Position numbers and translations under genes: made by a program. From NCBI GenBank assembly GCA_947474365.1, contig CANJIU010000038.1:1-64000 (forward strand): DNA of 64,000 nt, given 5' to 3'. The notes beneath the pieces were generated by a model. The model saw nothing but the letters and a program-made list of their open reading frames with translations, made no database searches and was not told where the DNA came from. The DNA is from Opitutia bacterium. GTDB lineage: Bacteria; Verrucomicrobiota; Verrucomicrobiia; Opitutales; Opitutaceae. This document shows, one piece after another, positions 27,170-36,207 of this stretch. Every line of letters begins with the position of its first letter. Within the stretch, counting starts at the first letter, position 1.

Positions 27170-27212
27170 GAGGCGCTCGACAAGCTGTCGCAGGTGACTC
27201 TAAGGCTTGGTC

Positions 27213-29741
27213 ATGTCCTGCCCCACGTTGACGACGTTGCTCCCCCTGATCGTGACCCTGTATTCGGCGGTGTCGGCCGCGGCCGCCGATTACGACGTGG
27301 TGGTTTACGGTGGTACCAGCGGCGCCATTACCGCGGCGGTGCAGGCAAAGGTGATGGGAAAGACGGTTGTCGTGGTCAGTCCCGACCGGCATCTCGGCGG
27401 GCTGACCAGTGGTGGACTGGGTTGGACCGACACCGGCAACAAGGCTGTGATCGGCGGACTTGCGCGGGATTTCTATCATCGCATCTGGCAGCACTATGAA
27501 AGCGAAGCGGGCTGGCGGTGGCAGAAGAAATCCGAGTACGGCAACACCGGGCAGGGCACTCCTGCAATCGACGGAAATCAACGGACGATGTGGATCTTCG
27601 AGCCCAGCGCCGCGGAAAAGGTTTTTGAGGACCTGGTGCGCGAACACAAAATTCCGGTGGTGCGCGACGAATGGCTCGATCGTGCGAAAGGGGTCGTGAA
27701 GTCGGGTGCGCGCATCACGTCGATCACGATGCTCAGCGGGAAAACCTACACCGGGCGGATGTTCGTCGACGCGACCTACGAGGGCGATTTGATGGCGGCC
27801 GCGGGGGTGTCGTATCACGTCGGGCGGGAGGCCAATCGGGTCTACGGCGAAGAGCACAATGGGGTGCAAACCGGAGTTCTCCACCACCGACATCATTTTG
27901 GCGTATTGAAGGAAAAAATCAGCCCGTACGTTGTTCCCGGTGATCCCAAGAGTGGGGTGCTGGCCCGCGTAAGTTCGGCGCCGCCGGGCGTGTTTGGCGA
28001 AGGCGACTCGCGGGTTCAGGCCTATTGTTACCGCATGTGCCTGACGGACGTTCCTGAGAACCGCGTGCCGTTTGCCAAGCCCGCAGGCTATGACCCGAAG
28101 CAGTATGAGCTGCTCGCGCGAATCTATGCGGCGGGTTGGACGGAGACCTTTGGCAAGTTTGACCCGATTCCGAACCACAAGACCGACACGAACAATCACG
28201 GACCCTTCAGTACGGACAACATCGGCATGAGCTACGATTATCCGGAGGCGTCCTATACGCGTCGGCGCGAGATTCTGAAGGAGCACGAAAACTACCAGAA
28301 GGGCTGGCTCTATTTCATCACGACCGATCCGCGGGTGCCGAAGGAGGCACAAGAAAAAATGCGGAAGTGGGGCCTGCCGAAGGATGAGTTCAAGGACAAC
28401 GGCAACTGGCCGCATCAGATTTACGTGCGCGAGGCGCGGCGGATGATTGGCAGTTATGTGATGACCGAAAACGAACTGCGCAAGAAACGGCCGACACCGG
28501 ATTCCGTCGGCATGGGCAGCTACACGATCGATTCGCACAACGTTCAGCGTTACATCACGCCTGACGGCAGTGTGCAGAACGAAGGCGACATCGGCGTCCC
28601 CACTGGTGGGCCTTACGAAATCGCCTATGGCTCGCTCGTGCCGAAACGCGGCCAGGCTGACAATCTGCTCGTGCCGGTATGTCTCTCAAGTTCGCACATC
28701 GCGTTCGGATCAATCCGAATGGAGCCCGTGTTCATGATTCTGGGGCAGTCGGCCGCGACGGCCGCGGTGCTGGCGATCGACGCTAAGATTTCCGTTCAGG
28801 ATGTGCCGTACGCGAAGCTGAAGGAACGGCTGCTGAAGGACGGGCAGGTGTTGAGCTATTCCGCGCCGGCGCCGCTCACTGCCACGCTGCCGGAGTCGGT
28901 CCGGAGAGTGGTCTTCCTGGGTGACAGCATTACCTATTCCGGCGGCTACGTCGCCGACGTCGCCGCTTATTTCGCGACGCGCCATCCCGGTCGGAAGATC
29001 GAATTCATCAACGTCGGGCTCTCCAGTGAAACCGTTTCGGGCCTTTCCGAGGAGGGGCACGCGGGCGGAAAATTTCCGCGACCGGATTTGCACGAGCGAC
29101 TGGGCCGGGTGCTCGCGCAGACGAAACCGGATCTGGTGTTTGCCTGCTACGGGATGAACGACGGCATCTACCTGCCGCTGGACGAGGGGCGTTTTCAGAA
29201 ATACCGTGATGGCATCACGTGGCTGCACGATCAGGTGGTCGCGGCCGGCGCGCGTATCATCCACGCGACGCCGGCGCCGTACGACGAGAATCGAGGGAAG
29301 AAGGAGGGCTATGCAGCGGTTTTGGACCGTTACGCGGAGTGGCTGCTGGCCCAGCGGAAGGCTGCTCAGTGGGACGTTGTCGATCTGCATTTTCCGATGC
29401 AACGCTTCGCGGTAGAGCAGCAAAAAGTAGTGCCATCATTCACGCTCTCCAAGGATGGCGTCCACCCCGATGAACTTGGGCATTGGCTGATGGCACGGGA
29501 AATTTTGCTTCATCTTGGGGCCCGGGATTTGGGAGTCGCGTCCAACGCCGCGGAAATGGTCGGTGCGCATTCGCAGGGAGCGACAGTCCTGTCACTAGTC
29601 GGTCAAAGGCACACGCTGATGCGCGACGCATGGCTGACGGCAACGGGCCATAAGCGACCCGGCGTAAAAGCCGGGAAGCCGCTGGTGGAGGCCGAGGCGC
29701 TTGCCGGTGATATTGATGCGCAACTCGCGCTTCTCAAATAG
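27213..29741 (+). CDS. Exported FAD-dependent oxidoreductase fused to an SGNH hydrolase
   Basis: An 842-residue two-domain protein from ATG 27213 (TTG 27207 is in frame), with a signal peptide ending near SAAAA. Residues about 25-560 form a FAD_oxidored (PF12831-type) domain with the dinucleotide motif VVVYGGTSGAIT and the family stretch HLGGLTSGGLGWTD. Residues about 565-780 form a GDSL/SGNH esterase: block I VFLGDSITY, block III YGMND, and the Asp-x-x-His pair DGVHPDELGH. It lies 43 bases after the glycoamylase-like gene. Combined redox and deacylation of a secreted carbohydrate is an inference; many such proteins are in PVC genomes. Confidence 0.88.
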   Translation: MSCPTLTTLLPLIVTLYSAVSAAAADYDVVVYGGTSGAITAAVQAKVMGKTVVVVSPDRHLGGLTSGGLGWTDTGNKAVIGGLARDFYHRIWQHYESEAGWRWQKKSEYGNTGQGTPAIDGNQRTMWIFEPSAAEKVFEDLVREHKIPVVRDEWLDRAKGVVKSGARITSITMLSGKTYTGRMFVDATYEGDLMAAAGVSYHVGREANRVYGEEHNGVQTGVLHHRHHFGVLKEKISPYVVPGDPKSGVLARVSSAPPGVFGEGDSRVQAYCYRMCLTDVPENRVPFAKPAGYDPKQYELLARIYAAGWTETFGKFDPIPNHKTDTNNHGPFSTDNIGMSYDYPEASYTRRREILKEHENYQKGWLYFITTDPRVPKEAQEKMRKWGLPKDEFKDNGNWPHQIYVREARRMIGSYVMTENELRKKRPTPDSVGMGSYTIDSHNVQRYITPDGSVQNEGDIGVPTGGPYEIAYGSLVPKRGQADNLLVPVCLSSSHIAFGSIRMEPVFMILGQSAATAAVLAIDAKISVQDVPYAKLKERLLKDGQVLSYSAPAPLTATLPESVRRVVFLGDSITYSGGYVADVAAYFATRHPGRKIEFINVGLSSETVSGLSEEGHAGGKFPRPDLHERLGRVLAQTKPDLVFACYGMNDGIYLPLDEGRFQKYRDGITWLHDQVVAAGARIIHATPAPYDENRGKKEGYAAVLDRYAEWLLAQRKAAQWDVVDLHFPMQRFAVEQQKVVPSFTLSKDGVHPDELGHWLMAREILLHLGARDLGVASNAAEMVGAHSQGATVLSLVGQRHTLMRDAWLTATGHKRPGVKAGKPLVEAEALAGDIDAQLALLK

Positions 29742-29762
29742 AAGCGTTGGGCCAGCCATCCC

Positions 29763-29785
29763 CGGGCCCTACTTGACCGGGCCCG
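29763..29785. terminator. Hairpin between convergent genes
   Basis: CGGGCCC (29763-29769) pairs with GGGCCCG (29779-29785) across a 9-base loop, in the 45-base gap between the oxidoreductase-SGNH gene and oppF. No T-run is present, so a bidirectional terminator is only possible. Confidence 0.35.
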
Positions 29786-29786
29786 C

Positions 29787-30773
<987 letters not shown>

Positions 30774-30833
30774 GGGTTTTGCTGCGCCCGGGGTGGAGGA
30801 GAGTCGCGTTCGGCGATTGGATTTTGGAACGGG

Positions 30834-31808
<975 letters not shown>

Positions 31809-31824
31809 AGAGGGAAAGCCGGAA

Positions 31825-33756
31825 TCAGGGAGACGGTGGTCGATGCAGCGGTGCCGACACTGGGGATTGGAGGAGTTCGCGCAAGGCTGTCGCGACAGTT
31901 TCGGGCGGAAGATTGCGGAGTGAGCCTCCGCCGGTCAGGGGGCAATTGGGTGGCTGCAGGAGACGGGTCGGGGAGGAGAAAACCGGCCCGGTGCGCACGG
32001 GGTTAGTCGGCCCGAAGAGTCCGATCAGCGAAACCCCGAGGGCGTTGGCGAGATGCATGCCTCCGGTGTCATTGGTGACGAGCGCCCGGCAACTGACCAG
32101 CGCGTGAATAAACGCGACGAGATCCGTTTTGCCGGCGAGGTCGAGCACCCGCTTGGAATCGAAACCGGCTGCGATCTCACCCGTGATCGTTGCGTCGCTG
32201 GCGGTGCCGAACAGCAGGAAGGACTCTCCTGGCATCGACTCGATCAGGGCGCGCCAATGGGCGACGGGCCAGCGCTTCTCCGGGGTGTTTTCTGATCCGG
32301 GAATCAATGCGATGGACCGTCCGGCCGGGAAATGCGGACGGAGGTTGGAAAGCGGGGTGCACACGCGAGAAGCCTCGAGGCCGAAGTGGCGTAGGAAGTT
32401 CTCCCATAACTCAAGTTGGTGGTGTTTCTGCTCGTCGAAGCCCCGCGGCAGCGCATAGGAGTGGGAGAGGAAGGGACGCGGTTTTCCGGGGCGTTTGATG
32501 CCGAAGCGCTGGGGGCATCCAGTCAGCCATGCCTCGAAATCGCCCCGGAACGAATTGGTGAAGAGCAGCCACACGTCGGGAAACTCCGCGCGGAGCCCGA
32601 GAAAATGCGCATAGTATGCCGGGCCCTTGGTGGGTAGGGCGTGCAGCCGATCGGCCAGTCCGGTAGATTCGAAGAGTGGCAGGAATTGGGCTTTGGCGAC
32701 GAGGGTGATTTCCGCGTCGGGTCGGGCGGCGCGGAGTGCGCGCAGAAGAGGCACCGCCATGACGACGTCGCCGAGCCAATTCGGCAGGCGCACCCAGATG
32801 CGAGTGCGTTGTGGCAGAGCTTTCAGTTCGCGCGCGGCGAGGTCGGCGGTGAGCAGGTTGCGCTTCGCCTCGAGGCGAAAGCGCCGTGACGGCATGTCCT
32901 GGTTCCGCCATCGATCATGAGCCCAGAGCCACGAGGCGCAGAGATTGTCGTCGGAGCTGAGGAGCGTTTCGAGCCACCGATTGAGGCCGAGGGTCACGGT
33001 GGTGCCCGAGCCATCATGCGCGATGCGATGCGCCCCGATTTCCACCCGCCAGAAACCGAGGCGGCGGGGAAAGATCCCGTAGACGCGGGCGTTGAATTTT
33101 TCCGCCATCAGGCCAGGCAGTTCCGTTGTGGCACAAACCCGGCCGAACAGGGTGGTCAGCGCACCCTGCAGGCCCGCATTTTGATCGAAGAGGACGCCGA
33201 CGAAGCCGCGCCGACGGAGGATTTTCAGCGCTTCCGCAAAACCTTCCTTGCGCGAGAGAAGTTTCATGCCGAAACGCTCGCGCGAACCTTTCACGAAGGC
33301 GTTCGCGGCGGCGTTGTCGAGTGGCCGGAAGATGATGCCGAATTCGGGAAAGAGGCCGGGGATGATGAGCGGCTTCGCGGTCTGCACTTCCCAATAGGCG
33401 ATGTGCGGGGAGCAGATGAGGGTCGCCGCTGGGTCCTGGGCATGCTGGGCATAGGCGGCGAGCAATTCGGGCGAGGCCGAGATGATCCGGCGGAACCGCC
33501 GCTCGTCGAGATAGGGAGTGGCGAGGGAGAGAAGGCCGGTTTCGATCAGGCGGCGACAGCTTTCCCGGCCGATGCGTCGGTGCCAGGCGGCGGGCTGGTC
33601 CGGAAAGGCGTGATGAAGGTTGGACAGAACGAGCCGGTGGCGGCGCGGAAAACAGAGGAAAATGAAATCTCCCAGCAGCGCGGAGAGCACACGCAAGACG
33701 GGTTCGGGGGTGTGCGCGGTAAGCCAGCCGGTAATTTTTAGGGAAATAAGCAGCAC
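31825..33756 (-). CDS. Fused lipid A acyltransferase-heptosyltransferase (LpxL-like plus GT9)
   Basis: A 643-residue fusion of two LPS enzymes normally encoded apart. Residues 1-300 are an LpxL/HtrB-type acyltransferase, with the HX4E catalytic motif at His118-Glu123 (SPHIAYWE) and the WLWAHDRWR motif near 277-285. A leading hydrophobic segment would anchor it to the inner membrane. From about residue 318 the chain is a GT9 heptosyltransferase II-like domain, beginning WVRLPNWLGDVVM and ending with the NDTGGMHLANALG nucleotide-sugar motif. It would add a secondary acyl chain and a core sugar to lipid A. It diverges from another GT9 gene across 157 bases. Confidence 0.9.
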   Translation of the reverse strand: MLLISLKITGWLTAHTPEPVLRVLSALLGDFIFLCFPRRHRLVLSNLHHAFPDQPAAWHRRIGRESCRRLIETGLLSLATPYLDERRFRRIISASPELLAAYAQHAQDPAATLICSPHIAYWEVQTAKPLIIPGLFPEFGIIFRPLDNAAANAFVKGSRERFGMKLLSRKEGFAEALKILRRRGFVGVLFDQNAGLQGALTTLFGRVCATTELPGLMAEKFNARVYGIFPRRLGFWRVEIGAHRIAHDGSGTTVTLGLNRWLETLLSSDDNLCASWLWAHDRWRNQDMPSRRFRLEAKRNLLTADLAARELKALPQRTRIWVRLPNWLGDVVMAVPLLRALRAARPDAEITLVAKAQFLPLFESTGLADRLHALPTKGPAYYAHFLGLRAEFPDVWLLFTNSFRGDFEAWLTGCPQRFGIKRPGKPRPFLSHSYALPRGFDEQKHHQLELWENFLRHFGLEASRVCTPLSNLRPHFPAGRSIALIPGSENTPEKRWPVAHWRALIESMPGESFLLFGTASDATITGEIAAGFDSKRVLDLAGKTDLVAFIHALVSCRALVTNDTGGMHLANALGVSLIGLFGPTNPVRTGPVFSSPTRLLQPPNCPLTGGGSLRNLPPETVATALRELLQSPVSAPLHRPPSP

Positions 33757-33913
33757 GCGGGCCTTCTGATTGCGCCGAGCGTGGGCCTTTGGCTATGCAA
33801 AAACCGAGACAATTTTTCCTGCCGCCGGGAGAAATTGGCGTTTGATTTTATTGGCGAAAAACCATGAAACGTAACGTTCGTGCCGCCGGATCCTCTCCCG
33901 CGTCGCCCGGTTC

Positions 33914-34870
33914 ATGACTGAAATCCTAATCATCAAGCCCTCCTCGCTCGGCGACATCGTGCATGGCCTCCAGGTGGCAAGCTCGCTGAAAGCGCAGGTA
34001 GATCATCTACGCATTTCGTGGGTCGTCCGGGATATTTTCGCGCCCATCGTGCGCGCCTGCCAGGCGGTGGACCAGGTGTATGTCTTTGAGCGCAACGGCG
34101 GGGCGAAGGGCTTTCTCAAGCTCACGAAGGAACTGCGGAAGACCTCCTTTGACTACGTTTTCGATATGCAGGGGCTTCTACGCACCGGTCTGATGACGAT
34201 GCGCACGGTCGCGACGAAGAAGATTGGGCGCTCGGACGCGCGGGAATGGTCCGGGGTGTTCTACGACGAAAAGGTGCCGCTGCCGCCCGAGGGGAAACGC
34301 AGCCACGCGCTCGAAATCCTGCTGCAGTTTTGCACCGTCATGGGTGCCATGCCGGAGTTGCGCGGCGCGCTGAAATTCCGCGACGTCGAAGGCCTCAATC
34401 TCCGCTTCGCCGACGCGCGCGGGGGCGGCAAGCCGATCGTGATGTTTGTCGACAGCCGGCGGGCGGAGAAGACGTGGAACGGCTTCAAGCAATTGACCGA
34501 GCTGATTCTGCGGGAGGATCGCACCCGCAAGGTCGTCTGGGCCGGAAGCAATTACGTGCATGATCGGGGCATTTTCCCTCCCGCCCAGTTTTTCAATGTC
34601 ACCGGTAACACGAGTCTCGTTTCCCTGCCCGCCCTGGTGAAACGGGCTGACTGGGTGATCGCGAACGACAGCGGTCCGATGCATCTGGCGGCTGCCCTGG
34701 GGGTCAGGGTCGTGGGGATATTCGGGCCGACGGACCCGCGGCTGTTTGGCCCGTATCCGCTCAATGCCCCGAGCAATGTGGTCGTGCAGGCGCCCGTCGG
34801 CGACCTGAAGCTATTGTCGGCCAAGGAAGTTTATTCCCGATTTCAAAAAGCGCGCGCCCGTTTCAAATGA
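33914..34870 (+). CDS. GT9 heptosyltransferase-like protein (WaaC/WaaF family)
   Basis: A 318-residue glycosyltransferase family 9 protein, probably adding a heptose or related sugar to the LPS inner core. It has the N-terminal family signature ILIIKPSSLGDIVHGL and the C-terminal donor-binding motif NDSGPMHLAAALGVRVVGIFGPTDP. WaaC versus WaaF cannot be assigned from sequence. It is divergent from a fused acyltransferase-GT9 gene that carries a second copy of the domain. Its ATG overlaps by ATGA the stop of a possible 17-codon leader reading frame starting at 33864. The next gene, serS, is 65 bases downstream. Confidence 0.9.
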   Translation: MTEILIIKPSSLGDIVHGLQVASSLKAQVDHLRISWVVRDIFAPIVRACQAVDQVYVFERNGGAKGFLKLTKELRKTSFDYVFDMQGLLRTGLMTMRTVATKKIGRSDAREWSGVFYDEKVPLPPEGKRSHALEILLQFCTVMGAMPELRGALKFRDVEGLNLRFADARGGGKPIVMFVDSRRAEKTWNGFKQLTELILREDRTRKVVWAGSNYVHDRGIFPPAQFFNVTGNTSLVSLPALVKRADWVIANDSGPMHLAAALGVRVVGIFGPTDPRLFGPYPLNAPSNVVVQAPVGDLKLLSAKEVYSRFQKARARFK

Positions 34871-34935
34871 CTTGTTTTGCCACGCCGAAGCGCGGTACCG
34901 CGCCGTGGTTCGCCGCATAAACGCTTTCCAACACC

Positions 34936-36207
34936 ATGCTCGATCCGAAGCTCCTCCGTGAGTCGCCCGACCTCGTCCGGGCGGCGATTGCCAAGAAACA
35001 CCTTGATGTCGATCTCGACGCGGTGCTTGCCATCGATGCGACGTGGCGCGCGCAGCTGCAGGAGGTGGAGGCGTTGCGCAGCGCCCAAAAGGCGGCGAAT
35101 TCCGCGATGGCGGCGTTGCCCAAGGGGTCGCCGGAGTTTATTGCGAAAGTCGGAGAGATGAAGGCCGTCTCGGCGCAAGCCAAGGAGCGCGAAGGACAGT
35201 TGAAGGAGACCGAGGAGAAGTTTCGCCAGGCGATGCTCTCGATTCCCAATCTTCCGCACTCCAGCGTGCCGGAGGGGAAGACGCCGGAACAAAACGTCGT
35301 CTATGCGACCAACGGCGACGTGACGGCGGTGTCGCCCGACGCGATTCCCCATTGGGAGATTCCGGGTTTTGAGAAGCTCTTCGACTTTGCCCGCGGCGCC
35401 AAGGTCACGGGGGCGGGTTTTCCCTTCTACGTCGGCGACGGGGCGCGGCTGGTTCGCGCCTTGTTGCACTTCTTTTTGGATGAAGACGGTAAGGCGGGCT
35501 ACGTTGAGGTGAATCCGCCGATATTTGTGAATGCCGCCAGTGCGACTGCCACCGGGCAGCTGCCGGACAAGGAAGGTCAGATGTACGAAACCACGCCGGA
35601 TCACCTTTATGCCGTGCCGACGGCGGAGGTGCCGCTCACGAATTTCTTCCGCGACGAGATCGTCGATGAGGCTTCGCTCCCGATTTATCGCTGCGCCTAT
35701 ACCCCTTGTTTTCGGAGGGAGGCCGGCAGCTACGGCAAGGATGTGCGCGGACTCAATCGCCTGCACCAATTCGACAAGGTCGAGTTGTTGAAGTGGGTGC
35801 ATCCCTCGTCGAGCTACGACGAACTCGACAAGTTGCGCCTCGATGCGGAGCGGCTCCTCCAAAAACTGAAGCTGCCCTATCGCGTCCTCCTCATGTGCGG
35901 CGGCGATCTCGGTTTTTCGCAGTCGAAAAAGTATGATCTCGAAGTGTGGTCCGCGGGACAGAAACGCTGGCTCGAGGTTTCGAGCTGCTCGAATTTCGAG
36001 GCGTTTCAGGCGCGCCGGGCGCAGATCCGTTTCCGGTCCAAGGAAAGTGGCAAGCCCGAGTTGGTGCACACGCTGAATGGTTCCGGTCTCGCGGTGCCGC
36101 GGGTATTGGCCGCGCTGCTTGAAAACAACCTTCAGGCGGACCGCCGCGTGAAGATTCCGGAGGCGTTGGTGCGGTATTTCGGCAAAGAGTATCTGACCTT
36201 TGCATGA
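34936..36207 (+). CDS. serS: Seryl-tRNA synthetase
   Basis: SerS, a class II synthetase, charges tRNA-Ser and supplies tRNA-Sec in selenocysteine users. The 423-residue protein has the N-terminal antiparallel coiled-coil arm (residues about 30-100) that grips the tRNA variable arm. Motif 2 (TPCFRREAGSYGKDVRGL) and motif 3 (NGSGLAVPRVLAALLENN) are intact. The start is the ATG 65 bases after the GT9 gene. tilS follows, and its upstream in-frame TTG overlaps the serS stop. Confidence 0.97.
   Translation: MLDPKLLRESPDLVRAAIAKKHLDVDLDAVLAIDATWRAQLQEVEALRSAQKAANSAMAALPKGSPEFIAKVGEMKAVSAQAKEREGQLKETEEKFRQAMLSIPNLPHSSVPEGKTPEQNVVYATNGDVTAVSPDAIPHWEIPGFEKLFDFARGAKVTGAGFPFYVGDGARLVRALLHFFLDEDGKAGYVEVNPPIFVNAASATATGQLPDKEGQMYETTPDHLYAVPTAEVPLTNFFRDEIVDEASLPIYRCAYTPCFRREAGSYGKDVRGLNRLHQFDKVELLKWVHPSSSYDELDKLRLDAERLLQKLKLPYRVLLMCGGDLGFSQSKKYDLEVWSAGQKRWLEVSSCSNFEAFQARRAQIRFRSKESGKPELVHTLNGSGLAVPRVLAALLENNLQADRRVKIPEALVRYFGKEYLTFA

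Follow-up and report, generated by a model that had tools for sequence, protein, structure and literature searches.

A predicted lipid A acyltransferase-GT9 glycosyltransferase fusion in Opitutales and its distribution in the class

A single open reading frame on the minus strand of the window (the whole stretch of 64,000 nucleotides that was analysed) encodes an LpxL/LpxM-type acyltransferase and a complete GT9 glycosyltransferase in one protein of 643 amino acids. Both domains carry the expected motifs and the arrangement is widely conserved, so that the earlier claim of a true fusion is borne out by the domains, by the structural model and by relatives with the same architecture. We propose, with a probability of about 0.7, that the product is a bifunctional, inner-membrane-associated lipid A-core enzyme transferring both an acyl chain and a heptose, whose GT9 half decays when ADP-heptose is given up. 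The features of the locus are as follows:

31825..33756, minus strand: lpxL-GT9 fusion reading frame, 643 aa, GTG at 33756, full-length relatives
32905..33732, minus strand: LpxL/LpxM-type acyltransferase domain, aa 9-284 (PF03279, LpxM 5kn7, invariant residues)
32806..32904, minus strand: linker, aa 285-317 (pLDDT dip in the model)
32371..32805, minus strand: GT9 N-terminal (acceptor-side) Rossmann half, aa 318-462 (NWLGD with Asp330; Arg345-Pro-Asp347)
31867..32319, minus strand: GT9 C-terminal (donor-side) half, aa 480-630 (PF01075; EKRWP with Lys494, NDTGGMH with Asp563 and His568)
33757..33913, no strand: divergent intergenic region, 157 bases (AGAAGG before the GTG, by eye)
33914..34870, plus strand: stand-alone GT9 of 318 aa resembling heptosyltransferase I (TIGR02193 at 135.6 bits, short of the cut-off of 185.3)
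30834..31808, minus strand: OppD-like ABC ATPase, co-directional with the fusion and 16 bases downstream of it, regarded here as a neighbour

Gene, domains and predicted structure

The original prediction gave the limits 31825-33756, which proved exact; the gene runs on the minus strand from a GTG start (33756-33754) to a stop at 31825-31827, while the first frame of the plus strand holds several stops over this interval. The sequence AGAAGG, read by eye, lies 5 nt before the GTG on the minus strand, and a scan of positions 29700-35000 for sigma-70-like promoters returned 0 sites, with 0.8 expected by chance. Near position 32800, where the boundary at about residues 300-318 had been described as free of stops and starts, the frame is indeed uninterrupted, with neither a stop nor a frame change. 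Relatives were collected by a scan with two GT9 motifs, which yielded at least 576 stretches, 528 of them encoding relatives; all of the 80 best of these 528 have one open frame of at least 600 aa, one of them (L160) ending with its contig at query residue 501. These 80 come from records named Opitut- or Verrucomicrob-, Cephaloticoccus or Didemnitutus, which sets the window close to Opitutaceae; having been picked by GT9 motifs, they are uninformative on the frequency of half forms or separate genes.

The first half matches PF03279 (Lip_A_acyltrans) over aa 9-284 with 75.9 bits (cut-off 22.3) and is the sole PF03279 match in the genome of the window. The predicted HX4E motif is present within PHIAYWEV, its catalytic-type His118 and Glu123 being encoded by codons 33405-33403 and 33390-33388; HX4(D/E) is what we take to be the catalytic motif of the LpxL/LpxM family. 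Together with Arg159 and Asp191, both residues are invariant across the 13 rows of the relatives' alignment (A1). Several NCBIfam lauroyl acyltransferase models match this half, each far under its cut-off (htrB 44.2 bits against 297.8; msbB 29.1 against 336), and the equivalog and subfamily cut-offs for LpxL/LpxM were all missed, the best acyltransferase model reaching 63.7 of 248 bits. By sequence profile, the fusion matches LpxM 5kn7 at 1e-16. The protein thus shares the fold, the HX4E motif and the conserved Arg and Asp of the late acyltransferases LpxL/LpxM (PF03279; A. baumannii LpxM 5kn7), and differs from them in its attached C-terminal GT9 and in missing the htrB and msbB cut-offs.

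The second half, which had been placed from residue 318 onwards, is a complete GT9 domain spanning aa 318-630. PF01075 (Glyco_transf_9) matches aa 480-597 with 96.2 bits (cut-off 22); the N-terminal half (aa 318-462) lies outside Pfam's best stretch and is taken in by the structure alignments of the model with WaaF and WaaC (aa 318-634) and by a profile match to 3tov (profile positions 323-625). Asp330, Lys494, Asp563 and His568 are present and invariant across the 13 rows of A1, and presumably correspond to the catalytic and donor-binding residues Asp13, Lys192, Asp261 and His266 of WaaC. The nearest NCBIfam model is heptosyltransferase II (TIGR02195; 106.2 bits, below the cut-off of 134.6), and by sequence profile WaaF (1psw, 2e-32) comes ahead of WaaC (1e-15). 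Like WaaF (GT9, PF01075; 1psw), this half has a GT-B fold end to end, with the donor-side and N-terminal motifs, and occurs alongside a putative ADP-heptose synthesis gene; unlike WaaF, it is joined to the C-terminus of an LpxL and stays below the TIGR02195 cut-off. The missed equivalog cut-offs of both halves would count against assigning an exact acceptor and position.

The structural model, built from the window protein together with 35 relatives, reaches a mean pLDDT of 90.7 and a pTM of 0.88, the linker region averaging 67 for aa 281-290 and rising to 85 and then 94 in the stretches that follow. The model aligns with LpxM 5kn7 over aa 34-295 (Z 25.5, rmsd 2.5, 249 aligned residues) and with WaaF 1psw over aa 318-634 (Z 22.6, rmsd 2.6, 303 aligned residues). 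WaaC structures tie with WaaF in this alignment (Z 21-22), and WaaF and WaaC are also nearest by Foldseek.

Past the divergent GT9 gene lie serS, tilS and ftsH, and OppD- and OppF-like ABC ATPases follow downstream on the strand of the fusion. Among the best 80 of 528 relatives, the OppD-like gene is co-directional downstream in 30, and a divergent GT9 adjoins the fusion in 64 of the 77 that have at least 700 bases upstream. When the same 700 bases were required at the loci read across the order, a GT9 lay upstream of 14 of the 51 intact loci and of two of the 39 others (both on the same strand), and a fixed partnership across the order was rejected on these counts; the stop-to-stop frames used hid the upstream GT9 of two genomes (G039 and G017), which was visible on another reading. 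Elsewhere in the window, a plus-strand frame of 844 aa with a TTG start (27207-29741) combines a FAD-dependent oxidoreductase (aa 30-542) with a GDSL lipase (aa 570-760). The genome of the window (10.3 Mb, 97.64% complete, 7.44% estimated contamination) contains seven GT9 matches, one WaaA, an HldC-like protein (150.8 bits, curated cut-off 181.5) and a GmhA-like protein (179.6 bits, curated cut-off 209.45). An HldC below the cut-off is usual in the order, where one of 132 genomes reaches it.

Distribution, half forms and origin

Domain searches placed both halves above their Pfam cut-offs, and mapping across Verrucomicrobiota found the fusion in many families. In the order, 117 of 132 genomes match some part of the protein and 110 have PF03279; the locus was read in 95. 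A full fusion with intact GT9 motifs was found in 53 of these loci (21 families), a long fusion with damaged GT9 motifs in 15, an LpxL with the GT9 N-terminal half alone in 15, and a stand-alone or other LpxL in nine; two loci are cut by contig ends and one carries the halves as two overlapping reading frames. Full-length fusions thus number 68 among the 95 loci, and 51 are undamaged at both active sites (the 53 less G111 and the fragmentary G109). In the rest of the class, 23 loci chosen for long frames were read, of which 17, from 11 families, combine the two domains with a full set of GT9 motifs, two (group f29/g79) have a decayed GT9 and four have none. In the other classes of the phylum, the matches listed extend over the GT9 part alone, mostly in frames of 320-530 aa, with three (G222, G337, G210) in longer frames. 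The view that the two activities are normally separate genes therefore fits the matches listed from those classes and fails in this class, where the fusion is common. Homologues in which the halves are always separate are contradicted by the full fusions of 21 families in the order and 11 elsewhere in the class, and restriction to one genus was likewise rejected on the spread across families.

Some loci depart from the common architecture. Four genomes of family f8 (G007, G089, G048, G111; loci L185, L178, L184, L167) have a fused LpxL that has lost catalytic residues, with Gly in place of Asp191 and Asp or Gln in place of His118, and a separate LpxL in the genome; their GT9 half is still full length, but Asp330 is replaced by Asn in three of the four. 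The two overlapping reading frames of G014 (L054), which lie in different frames, reflect a natural split or a sequencing error. In G384 (L243) a 484 aa protein with LpxL and the GT9 N-terminal half overlaps by 20 bases a 189 aa GT9 C-terminal half, and the split falls at the inter-domain boundary of the GT-B fold.

The 15 half forms end near this same boundary, with 130-192 aa after LpxL. A profile of the GT9 N-terminal half detects the remnant in 12 of them, and in the other three (G005, G118, G130) only an alignment and their group's own profile reveal it. Profile comparison of the C-terminal parts of four groups with the intact form gave local E-values of about 1e-12 to 1e-38, the match spanning the N-terminal half only and the E-values, for one template, being rough. 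No donor half lies downstream in any of the 15, with at least 1.3 kb available, and on this ground frameshifted genes were rejected as their explanation. In three of the half-form genomes (G016, G023, G096) PF01075 finds nothing at all. The remnants have lost the NWLGD catalytic motif and keep Arg345 and Asp347 in 15 of 15; of the well-conserved columns, defined on 13 full-length rows with two decayed rows of 15 left out, the half forms keep 31 of 32 in LpxL and five of 29 in the GT9 N-terminal half. Synonymous change is unsaturated in a single half-form pair, G046 and G076 of one genus, for which dN/dS comes to 0.049 in LpxL and 0.335 in the remnant, with dS differing between the parts (0.23 and 0.50); constraint on the remnant is relaxed, perhaps not absent. 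By parsimony on a quick LpxL tree, presence of the donor half changes at least six times, and in the three genomes of f19/g27 the remnant is wholly lost. Four proteins of 455-490 aa (L077, L078, L202 and L204, from G050, G102, G418 and G344) were rejected as half forms on account of C-terminal parts unrelated to GT9; they have an extension of about 100-160 aa, and by their LpxL part they are placed next to the class-level fused clade.

As to origin, the fused GT9 domains of the order and of the class form separate groups in the GT9 tree, with stand-alone GT9 proteins beside the class group (94/98), and a single clade of fused GT9 was not rejected (p 0.324). The LpxL tree unites the fused forms of both order and class (87/86); four stand-alone LpxL lie within this group, and G399 lies outside it. 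The trees appear compatible with either one or two fusion events, and L241 (G399), whose LpxL half groups with stand-alone paralogues, is probably a second, independent fusion. A fusion of lpxC and fabZ has been reported in Bacteroidetes, Chlorobi and Verrucomicrobia in passages of a 2010 survey (PMC3087551), and likewise concerns the lipid A pathway in the same phylum, with different enzymes; in the available text of that survey the word "fused" occurs once, not for LpxL, and "fusion" never. No description of an LpxL-GT9 fusion was found in the open literature, as covered by titles, the starts of abstracts and passages of four papers. Both halves belong to known families, and judged by this search their fusion is a new variant, whose domain order is likely already present in databases.

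A possible link to ADP-heptose

The state of the GT9 half was compared with HldC as a marker of ADP-heptose synthesis, scored present at 129 bits or more with TIGR02199 and absent for matches of 80-101 bits. In the order, 49 genomes with an intact GT9 have HldC and four lack it, against six and 24 of those with a degraded GT9 (Fisher p 1.7e-11), a count that omits 12 of the 95 genomes (nine with a stand-alone or other LpxL, two cut by contig ends and one split). Among genomes at least 90% complete the figures are 40 and one for intact and five and 20 for degraded GT9; HldC also accompanies 16 of the 17 class-level intact fusions and is present in all six further family members outside the set counted. 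Because HldC co-occurs with an intact GT9, ADP-heptose is favoured as the donor of this half, as far as gene content can indicate; if the GT9 half uses ADP-heptose, its decay would be expected in genomes that do not make this donor. The quick LpxL tree requires at least 12 changes of GT9 state and eight of HldC. Of eight independent contrasts on well-supported branches, two to three agree with the link, none (rarely one) disagrees and five to six show no difference in HldC, so that with few informative contrasts the association corrected for descent falls short of significance (median p 0.25); a p of 0.05 would take at least six informative contrasts.

Other genes of the pathway follow the GT9 half less closely. 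GmhA, scored in 64 genomes, is present in 32 of 34 with an intact GT9, in five of five with a degraded GT9 and HldC, in 10 of 20 with a degraded GT9 and no HldC, in none of three with LpxL only and in both f29/g79 genomes; it tracks the GT9 state poorly, half of the degraded genomes without HldC retaining it. Across the order, 120 of 132 genomes have WaaA; among those with half forms it occurs in 13 of 15, G005 (80% complete) and G076 (77%) being the two without it. Since it is kept in half-form genomes, Kdo-lipid A still seems to be produced there.

Exceptions occur in both directions. G032 has intact motifs without a strong HldC or GmhA, and G435 without a strong HldC. Conversely, G004, G026, G113, G056, G091 and G002 combine a degraded GT9 with HldC; stand-alone GT9 genes might act as replacements in G091 and G056, where branches are long and uncertain, the one of G026 was rejected as such since it groups with the heptosyltransferase-I-like neighbour, and G113 has no stand-alone GT9 to take over. 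A further case is f29/g79, with genomes of 2.2-3.5 Mb, seven of the eight searched having a strong HldC in frames of 489-558 aa. The two loci read (G149, G215) come from genomes with GmhA and one stand-alone GT9 each, and their fused GT9 retains a recognisable fold (E about 1e-24) and has lost its motifs; a decayed fused GT9 alongside HldC and GmhA counts against the heptose reading. Our guess is that f29/g79 is Akkermansia, and a further guess is that JFJHEM_01585 of Akkermansia muciniphila, described in passages of PMC12527988 as an LpxL homologue of low identity (23.7%) in a Verrucomicrobiota species that lacks LpxM, is its decayed fusion; neither "glycosyltransferase" nor "heptosyl" occurs in the available text of that paper. 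The inner core of A. muciniphila is given as three Kdo and one heptose (passages of PMC13135019 and PMC12527988), which a dead second heptosyltransferase would fit.

Proposed function and alternative explanations

The N-terminal domain, working at the cytoplasmic face of the inner membrane, would take a secondary acyl chain from acyl-ACP and attach it to Kdo-lipid IVA, and the C-terminal GT9, WaaF-nearest by sequence, would use ADP-heptose to add a heptose to the growing inner core of the same lipid. Through the fusion, an otherwise soluble transferase may be tethered both to the membrane and to the acceptor that it shares with the acyltransferase. In a lineage that no longer makes ADP-heptose, or perhaps has another gene carry out the transfer, the donor half would decay or be lost, and the fold of the GT9 N-terminal half would often stay on the acyltransferase. 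The substrates, the order of steps and the coupling are what we infer here. As for the coupling of acylation and core-sugar addition suggested originally, about half of the loci read retain the two active sites together, which suits it; the GT9 has decayed in several lineages while the acyltransferase persisted, and coupling is therefore not obligatory. Neither the association of the GT9 state with genes for ADP-heptose synthesis nor the existence of remnants figured in the original prediction.

That same decay suits a simpler explanation, to which we give slightly less than even odds, namely that the domains were joined for convenience alone (equal amounts, a membrane tether), without coupling or channelling. 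The two overlapping reading frames of G014 point in this direction, as does the f8 quartet, in which the LpxL half erodes next to a full-length GT9 while a separate LpxL exists. However, the fusion is otherwise retained over much of the class, with both active-site sets intact in 51 of 95 loci and a model pTM of 0.88. An artefact of assembly or frameshift, or a chance joining, found no support beyond the 7.44% contamination estimate, and is refuted by the fusion in 80 of 80 relatives' contigs (one end-cut) and by the 68 full-length fusions in the order, leaving it a negligible probability. That the GT9 half moves a sugar other than heptose seems improbable: its score below the WaaF equivalog cut-off and the motifs kept by G032 and G435 without a strong HldC would agree with another sugar, whereas the nearest proteins in both fold and sequence are WaaF and WaaC, and the GT9 co-occurs with HldC.

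A second job might also keep the fusion, the GT9 N-terminal half serving the acyltransferase as a scaffold or acceptor-holding module instead of transferring sugar, which we regard as doubtful. The 130-192 aa kept after LpxL in 15 half forms without a donor half downstream, the presence of Arg345 and Asp347 in all of them despite the loss of NWLGD, and a remnant dN/dS that is relaxed and still below 1 in one pair are in line with such a role. Yet in that pair the remnant evolves far faster than LpxL (0.335 vs 0.049), and a single pair cannot establish constraint; five of 29 columns survive against 31 of 32, and f19/g27 has lost the remnant entirely. A version of this idea that we put forward only tentatively is that the class has an ancestral bifunctional enzyme, whose dead acceptor half became a working, non-catalytic module of the acyltransferase in heptose-less lineages, held by a lineage-specific Arg-Pro-Asp and arising several times when the donor half was lost at the boundary between the domains.

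On the proposed reading as a bifunctional enzyme, late lipid A acylation and inner-core glycosylation would reside in one polypeptide in many families, and their physical coupling is testable. The repeated loss of the sugar half provides a natural gradation (intact, motif-dead, half, none) along which the role of a GT-B acceptor domain for an acyltransferase may be followed. If the heptose reading is true, the LPS chemistry of many uncultured Verrucomicrobiota would be predictable from sequence.
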